Origin: Candidatus Peregrinibacteria bacterium | GTDB taxonomy: Bacteria > Patescibacteriota > Gracilibacteria > UM-FILTER-43-11 | Assembly (NCBI GenBank): GCA_030637565.1 | Contig: DAOWGG010000086.1 | Span: 1 to 11,631, forward strand | Direction: 5' to 3' | DNA: 11,631 nucleotides | Part shown: piece after piece, positions 1 through 8,188 of the stretch | Layout of the letters: each line of letters opens with the position of its first letter | Position numbering within the stretch: position 1 is the first letter of the stretch | The notes under the pieces: generated by a model | Database searches by the model: none | What the model saw: only the letters and a program-made list of their open reading frames with translations | What the model was told of the DNA's origin: nothing | Made by a program: the position numbers and the translations under genes

Positions 1-279
1 ATTGGTTCCAAATTTAACATACCCTACTCCAACAATACTGTATTCGAGTTTGAATACTCGACTTACTTTTTTGTAAGTTTTCGAAACCAAAAGAATTTCT
101 TTTACACCAGGTAATCGAACGACTTGCCCTTCATTAAGCTTTTGCTTGTCTCCAATAACACCAATAGCTGTTCGTTGGGTTCCGAACATCGCTTCACCTT
201 TTAGGTCGTGTTCTTCAATCACGTGTAGTACGTGGTCGGTCATTTCACGCGTTGCGTCTTTGCTCATTACTATAATCAT
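1..279 (-). CDS. aroF: DAHP synthase (type I-beta), N-terminal part, cut by window edge
   Basis: 3-Deoxy-7-phosphoheptulonate synthase condenses phosphoenolpyruvate with erythrose-4-phosphate, the first step of the shikimate pathway, in the cytoplasm. The 93 codons from the ATG at 279 to the window edge stay open. They begin MIIVMSKDAT and contain TAIGVIGD (about 42-49) and RLPGVKEILLVSKTYKKVSR (about 60-79), the pattern of the ferredoxin-like regulatory domain that precedes the barrel in Thermotoga-type DAHP synthases. The catalytic barrel lies outside the window. In the family this domain carries allosteric inhibition by Tyr/Phe, which fits the Phe/Tyr-rich leader peptide just upstream. The ATG at 279 is preferred over the in-frame ATG at 267 because MIIVM is the normal family N-terminus. 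There is no Shine-Dalgarno sequence. The family call is firm; the symbol aroF is by family convention. Confidence 0.85.
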   Translation of the reverse strand, partial: MIIVMSKDATREMTDHVLHVIEEHDLKGEAMFGTQRTAIGVIGDKQKLNEGQVVRLPGVKEILLVSKTYKKVSRVFKLEYSIVGVGYVKFGTN

Positions 280-314: not shown

Positions 315-336
315 AAAAAAACCGCCTGGTAGCGGT
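315..336 (-). terminator. Intrinsic terminator of the aroF attenuator
   Basis: Read on the minus strand, ACCGC (336-332) pairs with GCGGT (325-321) around the loop TACCAG, which can tighten by one U.G pair. It is followed at once by a run of seven T, ending at 315. This is a compact Rho-independent terminator placed between the leader peptide and the aroF start, so it would stop transcription before aroF. Its left arm can instead pair with AGCGG at 369-365, which would abolish it. It would also end read-through transcripts from pheT. Confidence 0.75.
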
Positions 337-376
337 CATTCATTTCTATTGTATGAAATAACGGCCGCTTAGCGGG
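321..376 (-). promoter_or_regulatory. Attenuator with mutually exclusive hairpins (1:2, 2:3, 3:4)
   Basis: Four segments in the minus-strand RNA can pair alternatively. Segment 1 is CCCGC (376-372), inside the last sense codons of the leader peptide. Segment 2 is AGCGG (369-365), right after the stop codon. Segment 3 is ACCGCT (336-331). Segment 4 is GGCGGT (326-321), followed by T7. Pairing 1:2 has the TAA stop codon in its loop. Pairing 2:3 (AGCGG with CCGCT) can be extended by TTCAT with ATGAA and acts as antiterminator. Pairing 3:4 is the terminator. A ribosome stalled on the Phe/Tyr codons would cover segment 1 and free 2:3; one reaching the stop codon would cover segment 2 and allow 3:4. 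The geometry is read from the sequence; the mechanism is inferred from the trp/phe attenuator model. Confidence 0.75.
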
Positions 377-416
377 TTTCAAAGTAAAAACCAAAGAAAA
401 AAGACTGTTTATTCAT
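369..416 (-). CDS. Phe/Tyr-rich leader peptide of aroF (15 aa)
   Basis: The short open reading frame encodes MNKQSFFFGFYFETR and ends in TAA at 371-369. Six of seven consecutive codons (residues 6-12) are Phe or Tyr: TTT TTC TTT GGT TTT TAC TTT. Such density of the end-product amino acids, followed by alternative hairpins and a terminator before an aromatic-biosynthesis gene, is the signature of a ribosome-mediated attenuation leader, as in enterobacterial pheA and pheST. It is too short for normal gene calling. No Shine-Dalgarno sequence precedes it, and the predicted transcription start lies only a few bases before the ATG, so initiation would be nearly leaderless. An in-frame ATG at 443 would give a 24-residue version (MKNCYTKND added) if transcription comes through from pheT. 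Confidence 0.8.
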   Translation of the reverse strand: MNKQSFFFGFYFETR

Positions 417-425
417 ATCGTTTTT

Positions 426-453
426 AGTGTAGCAATTTTTCATGGGGTGTCAA
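426..453 (-). promoter_or_regulatory. Sigma70-type promoter of the leader-aroF transcript
   Basis: On the minus strand a perfect -35 TTGACA (453-448) is separated by 16 bp from the -10 TACACT (431-426). A TG dinucleotide one base upstream gives an extended -10 element. The -35 box begins 9 bp after the pheT stop codon. The expected start near 418-420 leads straight into the leader peptide ATG at 416. The perfect -35 and the placement support it; the -10 matches at four of six positions. Confidence 0.6.
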
Positions 454-461
454 AAGAATCC

Positions 462-2849
462 TTAATCCCGAATGGCTGCCCCCGTTGACTTTAAATTGGC
501 CAATACTTTTTTGTGGATTTCGCTTACTTCCTCCTCCTTTAGTGTTCGATCGTCTGCGCGGTAGGTAATGGAATACGTCAGACTTCTTTTATCTGCTCCA
601 ATATTTTCTCCTTCGTATTCATCGATTAAATCAATGTTTTTAACCAATGTTTTATCGGTTTTTTGAATCGCATTGGTGTAGTCCTGCGCTAGGTTCTTTT
701 TTGGAATTAACACACTTACATCCAATTGAATTGATGGATATTTAGGAAGCTCTTTGTATTTTGGGGTTTGATCGATATTCATTGCATGAATTGATTCCAT
801 ATTGATTTCAGCAATGGTGACTCGTTCTTTTATTCCAAAATTCTTTCCAATTTGTGGATGTAATTCATAAAGTGATCCAATGGTTTGACCTCTCAAAATT
901 ATGTCTGCTATACGTCCTGGATGTTGATGACTTTCGCTGTTTTTTTCGTTTGAAGGCTTTAATTTAAATCCTAAATGCTCAATGGTTCCTTGTAATTCTC
1001 TAAAATCAGATCCAACTGTGGTTATGATCAAATTGGATTCCTCTTCGGCTTTGTCGGCTTTTTTGTGGTAGGTACGAGCGAGCTCAAAGAGCTTAAATTC
1101 TTTCTGATAACGAGTGTTGTCGGCAATCATTTCCATTGTCCATGGAAGCAGGCTCTCTCTCATGATCGACAGTTCACTGCTGATAGGATTGGTCACTTCA
1201 ATGCTGGCACTTCCTTGCTCCATTCCACATTTCTTTAGTAGCTCAGGACCTAAAAATGAGAACGTGTATATTTCGTTGAAGCCAAATGAAACCAATTTGT
1301 CCTTCATCTCTTTCTCGAAACGTCGTCGTGCGTTGATTGCTACAGGTTTATTGCTTATTTTTGGGGCGACAAATGGGATTTCATCGTAACCATAAATTCG
1401 TACCACTTCTTCAATTAAATCCGCTTCCATATGAATATCACCCAACCTCCAGCTAGGAATAATGACTTCAAAACATTCTTTATTTTCTTTTAATTCAAAT
1501 CCAAGGTCATTTAGAATTCGTTTAACCTCCTTGTCTGGAATGTTATATCCTATCAATCGCTCCATTTGACTTTTTCGAAGTTCAATTGATCGATTTTCAG
1601 ATTTATAATTTTTAAATTCAACAACTTCGCTGGCTATTTTAGCGTTAGGACAAAGCTCTAAAATTAATTCCATACTTCGGGATAATCCCTCTTTTGCTAA
1701 TTCATTATCGACACCTTTTTCGTAAATAATCGCCGCGTCACTGATTTGCCCCAATCCTCGTACGCCTCGCCTGGTAAGTTCTGGGTTGTAAACAGGGGCA
1801 TGCAAAAGCACTCGGTTGGTTTTTTGGTTAATACCACTGTGTAATCCGCCCATAATTCCACATAGGTCGAACAGTTCGTTTCCGTCGTCGAATACCGTGA
1901 TTCCTTCGAATAATTCGATTTCTTTTTCATCCAATGTAATCACTTTTTCACCTTTCTTGCTTTTACGCATGGTCCATTTCTTGCCTTTTACTTGATCTAG
2001 GTCAAAAGCATGCATTGGCATTCCGAGTTCCAGCATTACGTAGTTCGTAATATCTACAATATTGCTGATGGGTCGGATTCCGCAGGCAATTAAGTGTTGT
2101 TTCATCCAATCGGGTGAATCTTTTACTTCGATTCCCGTTAAATAGACGGCCAAATAATTGGAGCACGCGTCTTTATCTTTGATTTTGATTTCGATTGGCA
2201 GAGGACTTCCGTTCTTGGTCCGTTCTTGGTCCGTTGTGGAGCTATCGTTTTTCCATTTACCCAATCCACAAGCAACGAATTCGCGAGCGAAGCCACGGTG
2301 GCTGAAAAGGTCTGGGCGGTTCGTGATCGCGTGGTTGTCTACATCAATCACCACATCATCTAATCCCAATGCTTTGGCTAACGGAGTTCCAGTAGGCGCA
2401 TTGATGTGACTCAGATCCACAATTTCATGCTCTCCTTTTTTAGGGAACATTTCGTCCAGTCCAATTTCTTCTGCAGCACAAATCATTCCAAAACTTTCTT
2501 CGCCTCGAATCTTCGCTTTTTCCATTTTTACCACGTCGGTTCCATGCCATTTTACTACGGCACCGAGTTGGGCAAATGCCACTTTCATTCCTTCTTCTAA
2601 ATTAGATCCTCCACACACCACTTGAATCTTTTCTTGTCCATTATCCACCATGGTAATGCGGAGTTTGTCGGCATTTGGATGGGGAAGGATTTTATCAATT
2701 TTACCCAAAACCACTTTATCTAAATGGGCTCCAGTGTCTTCCATGGTTTCTATTTCGGCACTACGAGCAGTAATGATTTCTTTGATTTTATCGTTGTTTT
2801 TTTCGGTTATGTCGATGAAGTTCGATAGCCAGTTGAGTGAGATTTTCAT
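462..2849 (-). CDS. pheT: Phenylalanine--tRNA ligase beta subunit
   Basis: Beta subunit of the cytoplasmic alpha2-beta2 phenylalanyl-tRNA synthetase, which charges tRNA-Phe and edits mischarged Tyr. The 795 residues match the normal bacterial length. The N-terminus MKISLNWLSNFI is typical. The EMAP-like tRNA-binding domain spans about 42-155 (PHPNADKLRI at 56-65, VCGGSN). NRPDLFSHRG (177-186) follows, then the B3/B4 editing domain (about 215-390, with ISNIVDITNYVMLELG and GIMGG), the B5 domain (about 415-485), the synthetase-like core (HPGRIADI, GSLYELHPQIG), and a C-terminal ferredoxin-fold anticodon-binding domain (about 700-795, starting near KYPSIQLDVSV). No pheS lies upstream here, although pheS-pheT is the usual order, so pheS must be elsewhere. 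An 11-bp tandem repeat lies in the coding region at 2209-2235. No Shine-Dalgarno sequence precedes the ATG. The gene runs directly into the aroF leader region without its own terminator. Confidence 0.97.
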   Translation of the reverse strand: MKISLNWLSNFIDITEKNNDKIKEIITARSAEIETMEDTGAHLDKVVLGKIDKILPHPNADKLRITMVDNGQEKIQVVCGGSNLEEGMKVAFAQLGAVVKWHGTDVVKMEKAKIRGEESFGMICAAEEIGLDEMFPKKGEHEIVDLSHINAPTGTPLAKALGLDDVVIDVDNHAITNRPDLFSHRGFAREFVACGLGKWKNDSSTTDQERTKNGSPLPIEIKIKDKDACSNYLAVYLTGIEVKDSPDWMKQHLIACGIRPISNIVDITNYVMLELGMPMHAFDLDQVKGKKWTMRKSKKGEKVITLDEKEIELFEGITVFDDGNELFDLCGIMGGLHSGINQKTNRVLLHAPVYNPELTRRGVRGLGQISDAAIIYEKGVDNELAKEGLSRSMELILELCPNAKIASEVVEFKNYKSENRSIELRKSQMERLIGYNIPDKEVKRILNDLGFELKENKECFEVIIPSWRLGDIHMEADLIEEVVRIYGYDEIPFVAPKISNKPVAINARRRFEKEMKDKLVSFGFNEIYTFSFLGPELLKKCGMEQGSASIEVTNPISSELSIMRESLLPWTMEMIADNTRYQKEFKLFELARTYHKKADKAEEESNLIITTVGSDFRELQGTIEHLGFKLKPSNEKNSESHQHPGRIADIILRGQTIGSLYELHPQIGKNFGIKERVTIAEINMESIHAMNIDQTPKYKELPKYPSIQLDVSVLIPKKNLAQDYTNAIQKTDKTLVKNIDLIDEYEGENIGADKRSLTYSITYRADDRTLKEEEVSEIHKKVLANLKSTGAAIRD
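2209..2235. repeat. 11-bp tandem repeat inside pheT
   Basis: The 11-mer CCGTTCTTGGT occurs at 2209-2219 and 2220-2230, followed by a partial third copy CCGTT. Because 11 is not a multiple of 3, the two copies are read in different frames (part of TTDQERTKNGS). The repeat falls in the linker before the B3/B4 domain, where length is expected to vary. Confidence 0.85.
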
Positions 2850-4088: not shown

Positions 4089-5048
4089 CTACCTTCGTTT
4101 TTCTGGATCTACCCATTTTATTCCCAGCTTCCTGCATACTTCTTTTTCAGTTTTACCAGCAACATATTCACCATCTTTGAATAAACCGTATTCGTTGAGG
4201 AGGAAGCCTTTTTTGATGGCGTGTTGGCGCATTTTTATGTTGAAAACTTTACTTCCGGTGAAATATAAAAGGGCTGCTCCATAGCTCTCTTCGGGTACAA
4301 ATCGAATATCAATTTGAAGATCATTTTTCTTAATAACAAAAGAGAATTTGGTTTCACCTCGCCCTAAAATTGTTAGATTTGGAAACGTTTTGAGGATCTG
4401 TTTTTCCGCATTAATGACAAGCCTTTTGGACCCCACTATTAAAACATCTAAATCCCCAACGGCCTTGGCTTGGCGACGGAAGCTGCCAGCGGCTTCGGCT
4501 TTTTTTACCCCTTTTATCTTTTTTAGGAGGTTGATGATTTTTTTGGCGATCGGCTCTACTTCACTTCGTTTGTGTTTTTTCTTTTTTTGGCGATCCGCTT
4601 CAATGGCTTCCAAAATTTTATCAATGGTTTTCTGTCCAAACCCTGGAAGAGCCAACAGCTCTTCGTTTTTAGCGGCCTTTACAAGCTCTTTTTTTGAAGT
4701 GATGCTTGCTAGCAAGAAAAGCTTTCCAATTCGTCCTGGGCCGAGCCCTGGAATCTTAAGCATTGCTCGTACTGTTTTAGGAATTTCCAGTCGTAAATCT
4801 TCTAAAAAACGCATTTTTCCTGTTTCAATGTATTCCATCATTTTTTGTGCGAGTGCTTTTCCGATGCGATTGATTTGAAGAAATTCGGCTTCATTGGCGT
4901 TTTGTTTTGTGATGGGGTCAGCCTCTTCTTTTAATACGCGTGCGGCTTCTCGATAGGCGCGTACTCGAAAAAATCCCTCCCCTAAAATTCCCATTAAATC
5001 GGCAATTTCATTGAATAGCTTATAGAAGTCGTTGTTGTATTTCTTCAT
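4089..5048 (-). CDS. PolX-family DNA polymerase core, lacking PHP domain
   Basis: Family X (pol beta-like) nucleotidyltransferase, expected to fill gaps in DNA repair in the cytoplasm. The 319 residues show the 8-kDa domain (about 1-85, GEGFFRVRAYREAARVL at 23-39), two helix-hairpin-helix motifs (IPGLGPGRIGKL at 99-110 and LPGFGQKTIDKI at 134-145), the palm motif GSFRR (188-192), the metal-binding pair D199/D201 in GDLDVL, the third Asp D247 in QIDIRF, and YFTGS (262-266). The C-terminal thumb helix ends at LGIKWVDPEKRR. All catalytic residues are present. Typical bacterial PolX continues into a C-terminal PHP nuclease domain of about 250 residues; here the frame stops where that domain would begin and nothing like PHP follows in the window. 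No Shine-Dalgarno sequence precedes the ATG. Confidence 0.9.
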   Translation of the reverse strand: MKKYNNDFYKLFNEIADLMGILGEGFFRVRAYREAARVLKEEADPITKQNANEAEFLQINRIGKALAQKMMEYIETGKMRFLEDLRLEIPKTVRAMLKIPGLGPGRIGKLFLLASITSKKELVKAAKNEELLALPGFGQKTIDKILEAIEADRQKKKKHKRSEVEPIAKKIINLLKKIKGVKKAEAAGSFRRQAKAVGDLDVLIVGSKRLVINAEKQILKTFPNLTILGRGETKFSFVIKKNDLQIDIRFVPEESYGAALLYFTGSKVFNIKMRQHAIKKGFLLNEYGLFKDGEYVAGKTEKEVCRKLGIKWVDPEKRR

Positions 5049-5951: not shown

Positions 5952-7172
5952 ATGCTGAAAAAATTATTCCTTGTTGCTATTGCTAGCTTTTCTCTTTTTA
6001 TTACCCCGTTAGCTCTTGCTGTTGAGGCACCGATGGATGCCGTTCGTATTGATATTTTTGAGCGCCCTGATTGCGGACATTGTCAGGCTGAAAAGGCGTT
6101 TTTGAATGAATTGGCAAATGAGCGAGGGGATCTGATTTTGGTTTACCACGATATTTTTGAAAAAGAACACAAAAAGCATTTTATTGAATTGGCTGAACTT
6201 GAAGATATTCCAAAAGTGACCCCTATCACAATCATTGATGGAGTGCTTTTACAGGGATTTTCCAGTGCTGAAACCACGGGGAAGAAAATAGAAAACTTGA
6301 TTGAAAGTGCTAAAGGGAAGACACAATATACCTTTGAGGAGTTTATTGCGATGGGTGGAAGTCAGTCTATTGAAAGTGATGAAGGAACTTGCGATTCGGA
6401 TGGATGCGATGTGGATGCGATTGATTACACATTTGATGTCCCCTTTATTGGTCCGGTAAATATGGCGGCTTATTCTTTGCATACCCTCTCTTTGGTACTC
6501 GGTTTTGTGGATGGTTTTAATCCGTGTGCGATGTGGGTGTTGGTGATGTTTTTGACCATTTTGGCGGAGGCGGGTTCTCGTCGTCGTATGTTTGAAATGG
6601 CTGGTCTGTTTATTTTTGCTGAGGCGATTATGTATTATCTCATTCTCAATGTGTGGATGACGGCTTGGGATTTTGTTGGATTGGATCGCATTATTACTCC
6701 TATTGTTGGTTTTGTGGCTGTGGCTGCTGGTTCTTATTTTCTTTGGTTGTTTTATAAAAAAGACACCTCGTGTAAAGTGGGTAGCTTAGAAAGCAAACGA
6801 CGTACTCAGGAGAAGATCAGGGGATATGCGACCGCTCCAATGACGATTATGGTGGCTTTGGGGGTTTTGGCATTAGCCTTTTCCGTCAATATCATCGAGT
6901 TTGCCTGTAGTATTGGTATTCCACAAACATTCACTAAAATTCTCGATATGAATTATCTAAGCTGGACGGGTAAACAGTTCTATAATGCGCTTTATATTCT
7001 TATGTATATGGTCGACGACTTGATTGTGTTTGGGATCGCGTTGTATAGCTTTGATAAAATTGGTTTAACTACTCATAAATACACCCGTGCTTCTCATTTT
7101 ATTGGGGGGCTGATTATGTTGGCTTTGGGTTTGATTATGCTGGTTAATCCGACACTTCTTGTTTTCGGCTAA
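5952..7172 (+). CDS. Exported thioredoxin-fold / CcdA-DsbD-like membrane fusion
   Basis: Probable thiol-disulfide protein of the cytoplasmic membrane, 406 residues. A signal peptide or signal anchor spans about 1-23 (KK, hydrophobic run, ALA-VEA). A thioredoxin-fold domain follows (about 30-120) with active site CGHC (41-44) and the cis-Pro loop VTPITI (89-94). A linker holds a second pair, CDSDGC (C147, C152). From about 170 on there are roughly six membrane segments with single Cys residues at NPC (C192) and FACS (C319), the arrangement of CcdA/DsbD electron-transfer channels; a loop Cys is C274. By analogy, electrons pass from the cytoplasm through C192/C319 to the extracytoplasmic CGHC. 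Domain order is thioredoxin first, unlike DsbD, whose thioredoxin is C-terminal. The start ATG has no Shine-Dalgarno sequence and follows two strong hairpins. The gene stands alone and converges on the FkbM gene. Confidence 0.85.
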   Translation: MLKKLFLVAIASFSLFITPLALAVEAPMDAVRIDIFERPDCGHCQAEKAFLNELANERGDLILVYHDIFEKEHKKHFIELAELEDIPKVTPITIIDGVLLQGFSSAETTGKKIENLIESAKGKTQYTFEEFIAMGGSQSIESDEGTCDSDGCDVDAIDYTFDVPFIGPVNMAAYSLHTLSLVLGFVDGFNPCAMWVLVMFLTILAEAGSRRRMFEMAGLFIFAEAIMYYLILNVWMTAWDFVGLDRIITPIVGFVAVAAGSYFLWLFYKKDTSCKVGSLESKRRTQEKIRGYATAPMTIMVALGVLALAFSVNIIEFACSIGIPQTFTKILDMNYLSWTGKQFYNALYILMYMVDDLIVFGIALYSFDKIGLTTHKYTRASHFIGGLIMLALGLIMLVNPTLLVFG

Positions 7173-7930: not shown

Positions 7931-8188
7931 ATGAAAAAGTTACATATATTAGCTTTTGGGTTAACCGCCGGTCTGCTTTGGGGGTTTGCTGTTTTCGGTT
8001 TAGCAATCGCTTCTCTTTATTGGGATGTTGCTACCCCGATTGTTGACCTTTTGGGTAGTGGCTATTTAGGTTACAAAGCTACTTGGGGCGGTGCTTTGAT
8101 TGGAGGCTTGGAAGGGTTTTTTGATGTTGGCTTAGGAGCTCTTATCTTTGCGTGGCTATACAATTTCTTTTCTAAGAAATTCAAATAG
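7931..8188 (+). CDS. Small two-helix membrane protein, holin-like
   Basis: 85-residue membrane protein. One hydrophobic helix spans about 5-30 (HILAFGLTAGLLWGFAVFGL) and a second about 53-78 (GGALIGGLEGFFDVGLGALI), joined by a loop with GSGYLGYKATWGG; the tail is basic (NFFSKKFK). The pattern GYKA-x(3)-G-x-x-IG-x(3)-GF-D and the ending WLYN resemble a family of small bacterial proteins usually labelled bacteriophage holin although they occur outside prophages. No lysin or phage gene is nearby, so lysis is doubtful. It is divergent from FkbM across 38 bp and ends inside an 11-bp tandem repeat. Confidence 0.75.
   Translation: MKKLHILAFGLTAGLLWGFAVFGLAIASLYWDVATPIVDLLGSGYLGYKATWGGALIGGLEGFFDVGLGALIFAWLYNFFSKKFK

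Follow-up and report, generated by a model that had tools for sequence, protein, structure and literature searches.

The sequence between pheT and aroF on the minus strand of the DNA analysed here (the window, 11,631 nucleotides in its whole length) is best read as controlling the aroF(-aroB) operon by classical ribosome-mediated transcription attenuation, a reading to which we give a probability of about 0.9. Promoter consensus, leader ORF, alternative pairings, terminator, conservation and the fit between leader codons and pathways are seen in the sequence and by comparison, and from them we infer the transcription start, the translation of the leader, the termination, the response to tRNA charging and any role of Tyr. 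The original prediction had listed a promoter, a Phe/Tyr leader, the 1:2, 2:3 and 3:4 pairings and a T7 run before aroF, and all were recovered on the minus strand (Table 1); its reading of these parts as an attenuator is supported by the comparison across the family and the class and by the antiterminator tests, its identification of aroF as a DAHP synthase gene by the PF18152 match in the window and by comparison with relatives, and its suggestion of a candidate phylum by the protein names of the close relatives (Candidatus Peregrinibacteria / Patescibacteria).

Parts of the predicted attenuator and neighbouring genes

The two promoter boxes match the consensus at 10 of 12 positions, with a spacer of 16 between TTGACA and TACACT, and TTGAC(A/T) is found again ahead of most of the relatives' leaders. 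Residues 6-12 of the leader peptide (FFFGFYF) comprise five Phe and one Tyr, and the UAA stop is the three-base loop between the CCGC of strand 1 and GCGG at 368-365. The predicted intrinsic terminator spans 336-315, between the leader ORF and aroF; its 5′ arm is the CCGC of strand 3 plus A336 (ACCGC 336-332), and in the window just 35 bases separate the T run from aroF. A scan of both strands of the window with the same thresholds returned two further leader-plus-terminator matches, at 4470-4526 and 8108-8188 on the plus strand, so the pattern by itself is weak evidence and conservation decides.

The leader ATG lies 9 bases behind the -10 box, and because transcription usually starts 6-8 bases behind such a box, about 2-4 untranslated bases would precede the AUG; judged from this spacing, the leader gene is probably near-leaderless. 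The distance is 8-9 bases in 10 of the 11 family members, the other one (G006) having 44 with its best-scoring promoter; in other families it is 7-10 in f5 (6/6) and f15 (1/1), 7, 13 and 18 in f20, 21-37 in the 13 f18 leaders, and mostly above 20 in the remainder (46 leaders overall).

From the promoter right behind pheT, the RNA would begin a few bases ahead of the leader ATG, so that translation of the leader would follow closely behind RNA polymerase. With an ample supply of charged tRNA-Phe, and perhaps of tRNA-Tyr, the ribosome would reach the UAA and cover strands 1 and 2, leaving 3 and 4 to pair and transcription to end at about 315; when charging is low, it would stall within the FFFGFYF run, 2:3 would form with 1:4 outside it, the terminator would be blocked, and aroF would be transcribed.

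Table 1. Coordinates of the predicted attenuator, its flanking genes and the second short ORFs of relatives
Feature	Position	Strand	Basis or remark
-35 box TTGACA	453-448	minus	consensus scan
-10 box TACACT, TG in front	431-426	minus	consensus scan
Leader peptide gene, MNKQSFFFGFYFETR, then stop	ATG 416 to TAA 371-369	minus	ORF; aligned with 10 relatives
Strand 1, CCGC	375-372	minus	partner of either strand 2 (UAA loop) or strand 4
Strand 2, GCGG-C-CGTT	368-360	minus	pairs with strand 1 or strand 3
Strand 3, AATG-A-CCGC	340-332	minus	antiterminator partner of strand 2
Strand 4, GCGGT, and T run (T7)	325-321 and 321-315	minus	predicted intrinsic terminator, 3′ arm
aroF (DAHP synthase), first 93 codons, ATG 279	1..279	minus	PF18152 1e-16; leaves contig
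pheT, Phe-tRNA synthetase beta chain	462..2849	minus	TIGR00472 2e-213
Second ORF ending in an aromatic/Cys-x-Tyr-Arg/Gln-like motif before aroF	L059, L060, L084, L067, L007, L058, L056, L053, L052, L065, L069, others		
Second ORF in hairpin, same-family relatives	L036:1684-1784; L031:3266-3383; L028:4969-5061; L030:1343-1453		
Second ORF in hairpin, same-family relatives (continued)	L033:530-640; L029:6009-6127; L027:4180-4280		

The aroF codons in the window match the ferredoxin-like domain PF18152, and the catalytic domain would lie past the contig end; in the aroF of a relative (G001), both PF18152 and PF00793 are present. Allosteric control via the ferredoxin-like domain, which the original prediction expected here, is a feature of Thermotoga-type DAHP synthases. 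On another contig of the same assembly (C16, L193), 13 opening codons resemble, by eye, the C-terminus of the relatives' aroF and are followed by aroB, and the genes downstream of aroF in three relatives (Pfam) are aroB in G001, aroB and an aroA-aroK fusion in G330, and aroA and aroK (shikimate kinase) in G277. The genome of the window encodes a prephenate dehydratase, and the same truncated frame also matches prephenate dehydrogenase, though below the cut-off; the genome gave no trpC match, and absences in this genome carry little weight because the assembly is 79% complete. A second DAHP synthase (PF00793), without the ferredoxin-like domain, lies on its contig C25 (L001), about 60 bases after another ORF, and no leader was seen on reading the sequence upstream of it. 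Elsewhere in the window, a PolX-like protein of 319 aa (4089-5048, minus) matches the polymerase part of that family only, with no PHP domain match, and a 406-aa protein (5952-7172, plus) without a Pfam or NCBIfam match seems, by eye, to begin like a thioredoxin, with a CxxC, and to continue into membrane helices.

Candidate leaders in relatives and the amino acids that they may sense

In the class sample of 353 genomes, the aroF domain was found in 87, of which 85 were over the cut-off; 87 of the 90 aroF places were taken, and 85 could be assessed (at least 150 bases upstream). A leader was scored where a short ORF had 5 or more (strict) or 4 or more aromatic residues in 8 and was followed by a terminator; other ORFs of these loci, among them spurious ones, and dinucleotide-preserving shuffles served as controls. 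Under the strict definition, leader and terminator were present at 43 of the 85 places, whereas they were found for 5/553 other ORFs and 1/425 shuffles; with at least 4 in 8, the corresponding values were 48/85, 13/553 and 7/425. At 19 more places there is an aromatic run, weak in some cases, without a terminator scored or placed by the finder. Predicted leader attenuation of aroF is common in this bacterial class.

In the window's own family, aroF is present in 13 of 18 genomes, and leader (at least 4 in 8) and terminator at 11 of these 13 places; in one exception (G005), the contig ends 195 bases upstream, and the other (G015) keeps aroF and has no leader. Three genomes (G277, G289, G340) have two aroF copies each, the one beside trp genes without a leader and the other with it, and in G339 the sole copy adjoins trp genes and has no leader. 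No convincing leader was found in several class members, among them f6, f21, G269, G276, G280, G296, G328 and G228; in f6 and f30, what directly precedes aroF looks, by eye, like the last part of a different gene. Relatives that keep aroF and have lost the leader, which the original prediction had named as contrary evidence, are thus found in part of the sample (G015, the trp-linked copies and several class members). Among 379 genomes drawn from the phylum's other classes, all 7 aroF places have leader and terminator with at least 4 in 8, and 6 of the 7 with at least 5. In other phyla, the strict pattern was found at 23 of 79 assessable loci, taken from the best 80 of at least 594 matches, vs 5/1224 control ORFs; the hits come, among others, from Calditrichota, Clostridia, Fusobacteria, Planctomycetes, Acidobacteria and Geomonas, and no Patescibacteria were among the best 80 of at least 594 matches in this named-genome scan. 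Three Syntrophaceae/delta-like leaders (L128, L149, L173) have a common C-terminal tail, VCPxLRR, behind the aromatic run.

The window's own leader has Phe and Tyr as aromatic codons and no Trp, and Tyr codons are present in most class leaders. A strong trpC match occurs in the genomes of 18/28 leaders with Trp codons vs 2/19 leaders without them (p 3e-4, kinship ignored), and, when leaders without a scored terminator are added (66 in total), with 26/41 vs 6/25 (p 0.002), so that the exceptions among all 66 are 15 of the 41 Trp-bearing leaders without a strong trpC match and the 6 of 25 non-Trp leaders with one; in some class members, trpC contains an in-frame TGA. Since Tyr recurs in the class leaders and Trp codons go with trpC, the codon make-up suggests that these leaders would sense more than one pathway product. 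A variant of the attenuator reading, in which Phe alone is sensed and the Tyr codon is merely part of the FGFYF motif, is a real, if minority, possibility; it is favored by Corynebacterium glutamicum, where, according to the excerpts of PMC11802643 and PMC4046766, the Phe-Tyr-Phe leader AroR of aroF responds to Phe limitation and not to Tyr availability, and it is at odds with the Tyr codons of most class leaders and with the association between Trp-codon leaders and trpC.

Much less probable is that the hairpin is merely the terminator of pheT, the short ORF being incidental and aroF being expressed from the nearby promoter with no attenuation. The pheT gene does lie directly upstream of the attenuator, its stop 8 bases ahead of the -35 box, and the two further leader-plus-terminator matches in the window are without known context, which would agree with such an explanation; however, relatives such as G006, G009 and G016 retain the leader and the competing pairing despite other ORFs directly upstream, and leader and terminator occur together far more often than in the controls. 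By eye, G001 and G012 have a pheT-like ORF that ends just ahead of the leader, and in G003, G006, G011 and G016 such an ORF lies farther upstream of it. A Phe leader with terminator was sought ahead of pheT itself, and none was found. Within the attenuator reading, the terminator may also serve pheT.

Alternative pairing of the leader RNA

As written, the helices 1:2 with 3:4 and 2:3 with 1:4 have the same predicted energy (-11.5 kcal/mol each), and the free RNA reaches its minimum (-20.8 kcal/mol) with an extended 2:3 enclosed by 1:4, rather than with 2:3 alone. RNA folded from base 357 onward, which mimics a ribosome at the stop, forms the terminator; because the free RNA prefers the antiterminator fold, shut-off in the absence of translation would need to be kinetic. 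The antiterminator duplex of the window beats shuffles at p 0.010. In the alignment of the eleven family members (A2), which are well aligned, RNAalifold with no structure supplied also gave 2:3 nested in 1:4; pairing of the terminator helix is complete across the 11 rows, its outer pair (101:119) being U-A in 8 and A-U in 3, and the 2:3 helix is 94% paired. Covariation of 2:3 is not above shuffles there (221 to 223 of 500 shuffles reach the paired and covariation values), as the 2:3 arms hardly vary within the family.

Between families, the arm sequences differ and the competing pairing stays, the antiterminator duplex reaching p<=0.05 against shuffles in 28 of 48 class leaders (combined p about 1e-28, kinship ignored); the other 20, including five of the six f5 leaders, miss this value, and the set of 48 probably includes one false leader (G311). 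The predicted 2:3 pairing is backed by complementarity and by the other families, not by covariation within the family. When 71 other loci were searched with a covariance model built from the family element, 8 weak matches (E 0.006-0.84) came up; going by their coordinates, 7 of these coincide with the aroF leaders in other families, and the eighth is on the opposite strand. Control by a metabolite-binding RNA or a T-box instead of ribosome position, in agreement with which the leader is structured and ends in a terminator, is hardly credible, since Rfam searches found no leader, T-box or riboswitch family in the window region (three below-threshold matches: SNORA30, DGCR5 and isrK) or in 15 related loci (only a tRNA, in L147), and the conserved parts are the aromatic codon run and short arms.

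Companion leaders, second short ORFs and known systems

Beyond its 11 source sites, the family model gave 12 matches at E <= 0.1 in 18 genomes. Four of them are opposite-strand mirrors, one (G006) is a Trp leader ahead of trpE, and three (G008, G003, G011) are Ile leaders, which leaves four that belong to none of these groups. When the genes of the same family were checked directly, Trp leaders with terminators were found ahead of 2/2 trpE-type genes (L236, L237), and Ile leaders with terminators ahead of 2/3 well-scoring PF00682 synthases (L244, L245). Seen by eye, L210 is another leader of the Trp-/Ile-rich kind in the same family, and L206 (G017:C95) is an attenuator-like match (E 1e-4) with a possible leader, MSNYPMLRWFLVINPLCGA, ahead of an ORF.

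In many relatives, another ATG-started short ORF lies between the terminator and aroF; the window's own genome has none. Outside the family, these ORFs end in motifs such as ICLY, SCLYRLWQ, PYLYQ, ICAYRN and YSYQN, and the end motif, which was picked after viewing the data and with some families omitted, is present at 19/45 loci vs 5/900 shuffles. The codon-position test of second ORFs was weak and favored coding only mildly, third positions being the most variable in three of four pairs (in one narrowly) and the least variable in the fourth (G289/G290). No marked folding was found for the second ORFs outside the family (z -2.8 to +1.8, 3/23 below -2, 60 shuffles each), and a hairpin switch is therefore proposed for family members only. 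In these, seven hairpins before aroF have z values of -1.8 to -5.3, with double changes at 3 of 13 consensus pairs, and the second ORF is Tyr-rich in six of the seven, not in G009; in G016, its ATG is far upstream. When the aroF start is taken as the in-frame ATG 11-12 codons ahead of the domain, it is predicted to be fully paired in five of the seven hairpins, with only its G in G010, and unpaired in G009. A covariance model of this second element (R2) recovers its seven source loci and, in addition, three opposite-strand mirrors and what may be called a weak remnant in G015 (L038, E 0.49); pair counts in which the mirrors and L038 had been included were set aside for that reason. In whole family genomes, two more weak matches appear (E 0.07, 0.09). 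As modeled, the second ORF of the family may be a translation attenuator, in which stalling at the Tyr codons would free aroF translation, the aroF start codon being predicted, in five of the seven, to be held in the hairpin base. With the balance of our judgement against it, much of the class could have two successive switches on the aroF operon, an aromatic transcription attenuator and then a second leader ORF, which ends in a conserved motif (CLYR, YLYR, CAYR, YSYQ) about 20-80 bases before aroF, which in the family would amount to Phe/Tyr(/Trp) transcription attenuation followed by Tyr translation attenuation.

Alternative hairpins are the basis of the Escherichia coli pheA, pheST and trp attenuators. 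Their leader peptides, such as pheL for pheA, carry codons for the product (excerpts of PMC11802643); unlike in these systems, the target here is aroF and merely 9 bases separate the -10 box from the leader ATG. The original prediction had considered a DAHP synthase under a Phe/Tyr leader undescribed, and this does not hold, since AroR of C. glutamicum is known (PMC11802643, PMC4046766, both in excerpt) and such a leader is predicted for Acholeplasma aroF (PMC8632094, in excerpt), where the uORFC-13-1 motif consists of a Phe uORF and a terminator, with 24 examples from Acholeplasma and unknown environmental DNA. Like aroR-aroF, the transcription of which rises under Phe limitation according to those excerpts, the window has an aromatic leader ahead of a DAHP-synthase operon, although its aromatic run is longer than in the actinobacterium. 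Likened by description in the excerpts, the uORFC-13-1 motif also has promoter boxes, a uORF with Phe codon(s) and a terminator ahead of aroF, but its model includes an RBS, in contrast to the probably near-leaderless leader of the window. Leaderless initiation is described for trpL, a Trp attenuator of the alphaproteobacterium Sinorhizobium meliloti, the RNA of which has its 5′ end at the ATG of the leader peptide (excerpts of PMC7298713), and the start deduced for the window would resemble it. In the open-access literature, no description of such leaders in Patescibacteria, Peregrinibacteria or Gracilibacteria was found, and what is new is their spread through Peregrinibacteria and other Patescibacteria, the probably near-leaderless leader gene, the companion Trp/Ile leaders and the second conserved short ORF.

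If true, the role proposed for the second ORF would make a two-step switch, transcription and then translation, on one operon. The comparison suggests that the codon make-up of the leaders tracks the aromatic pathways that a genome keeps, which would offer a reading of pathway use from sequence in mostly uncultured bacteria, and it also suggests that Patescibacteria, with their small genomes, run amino-acid operons by leader-peptide attenuation.
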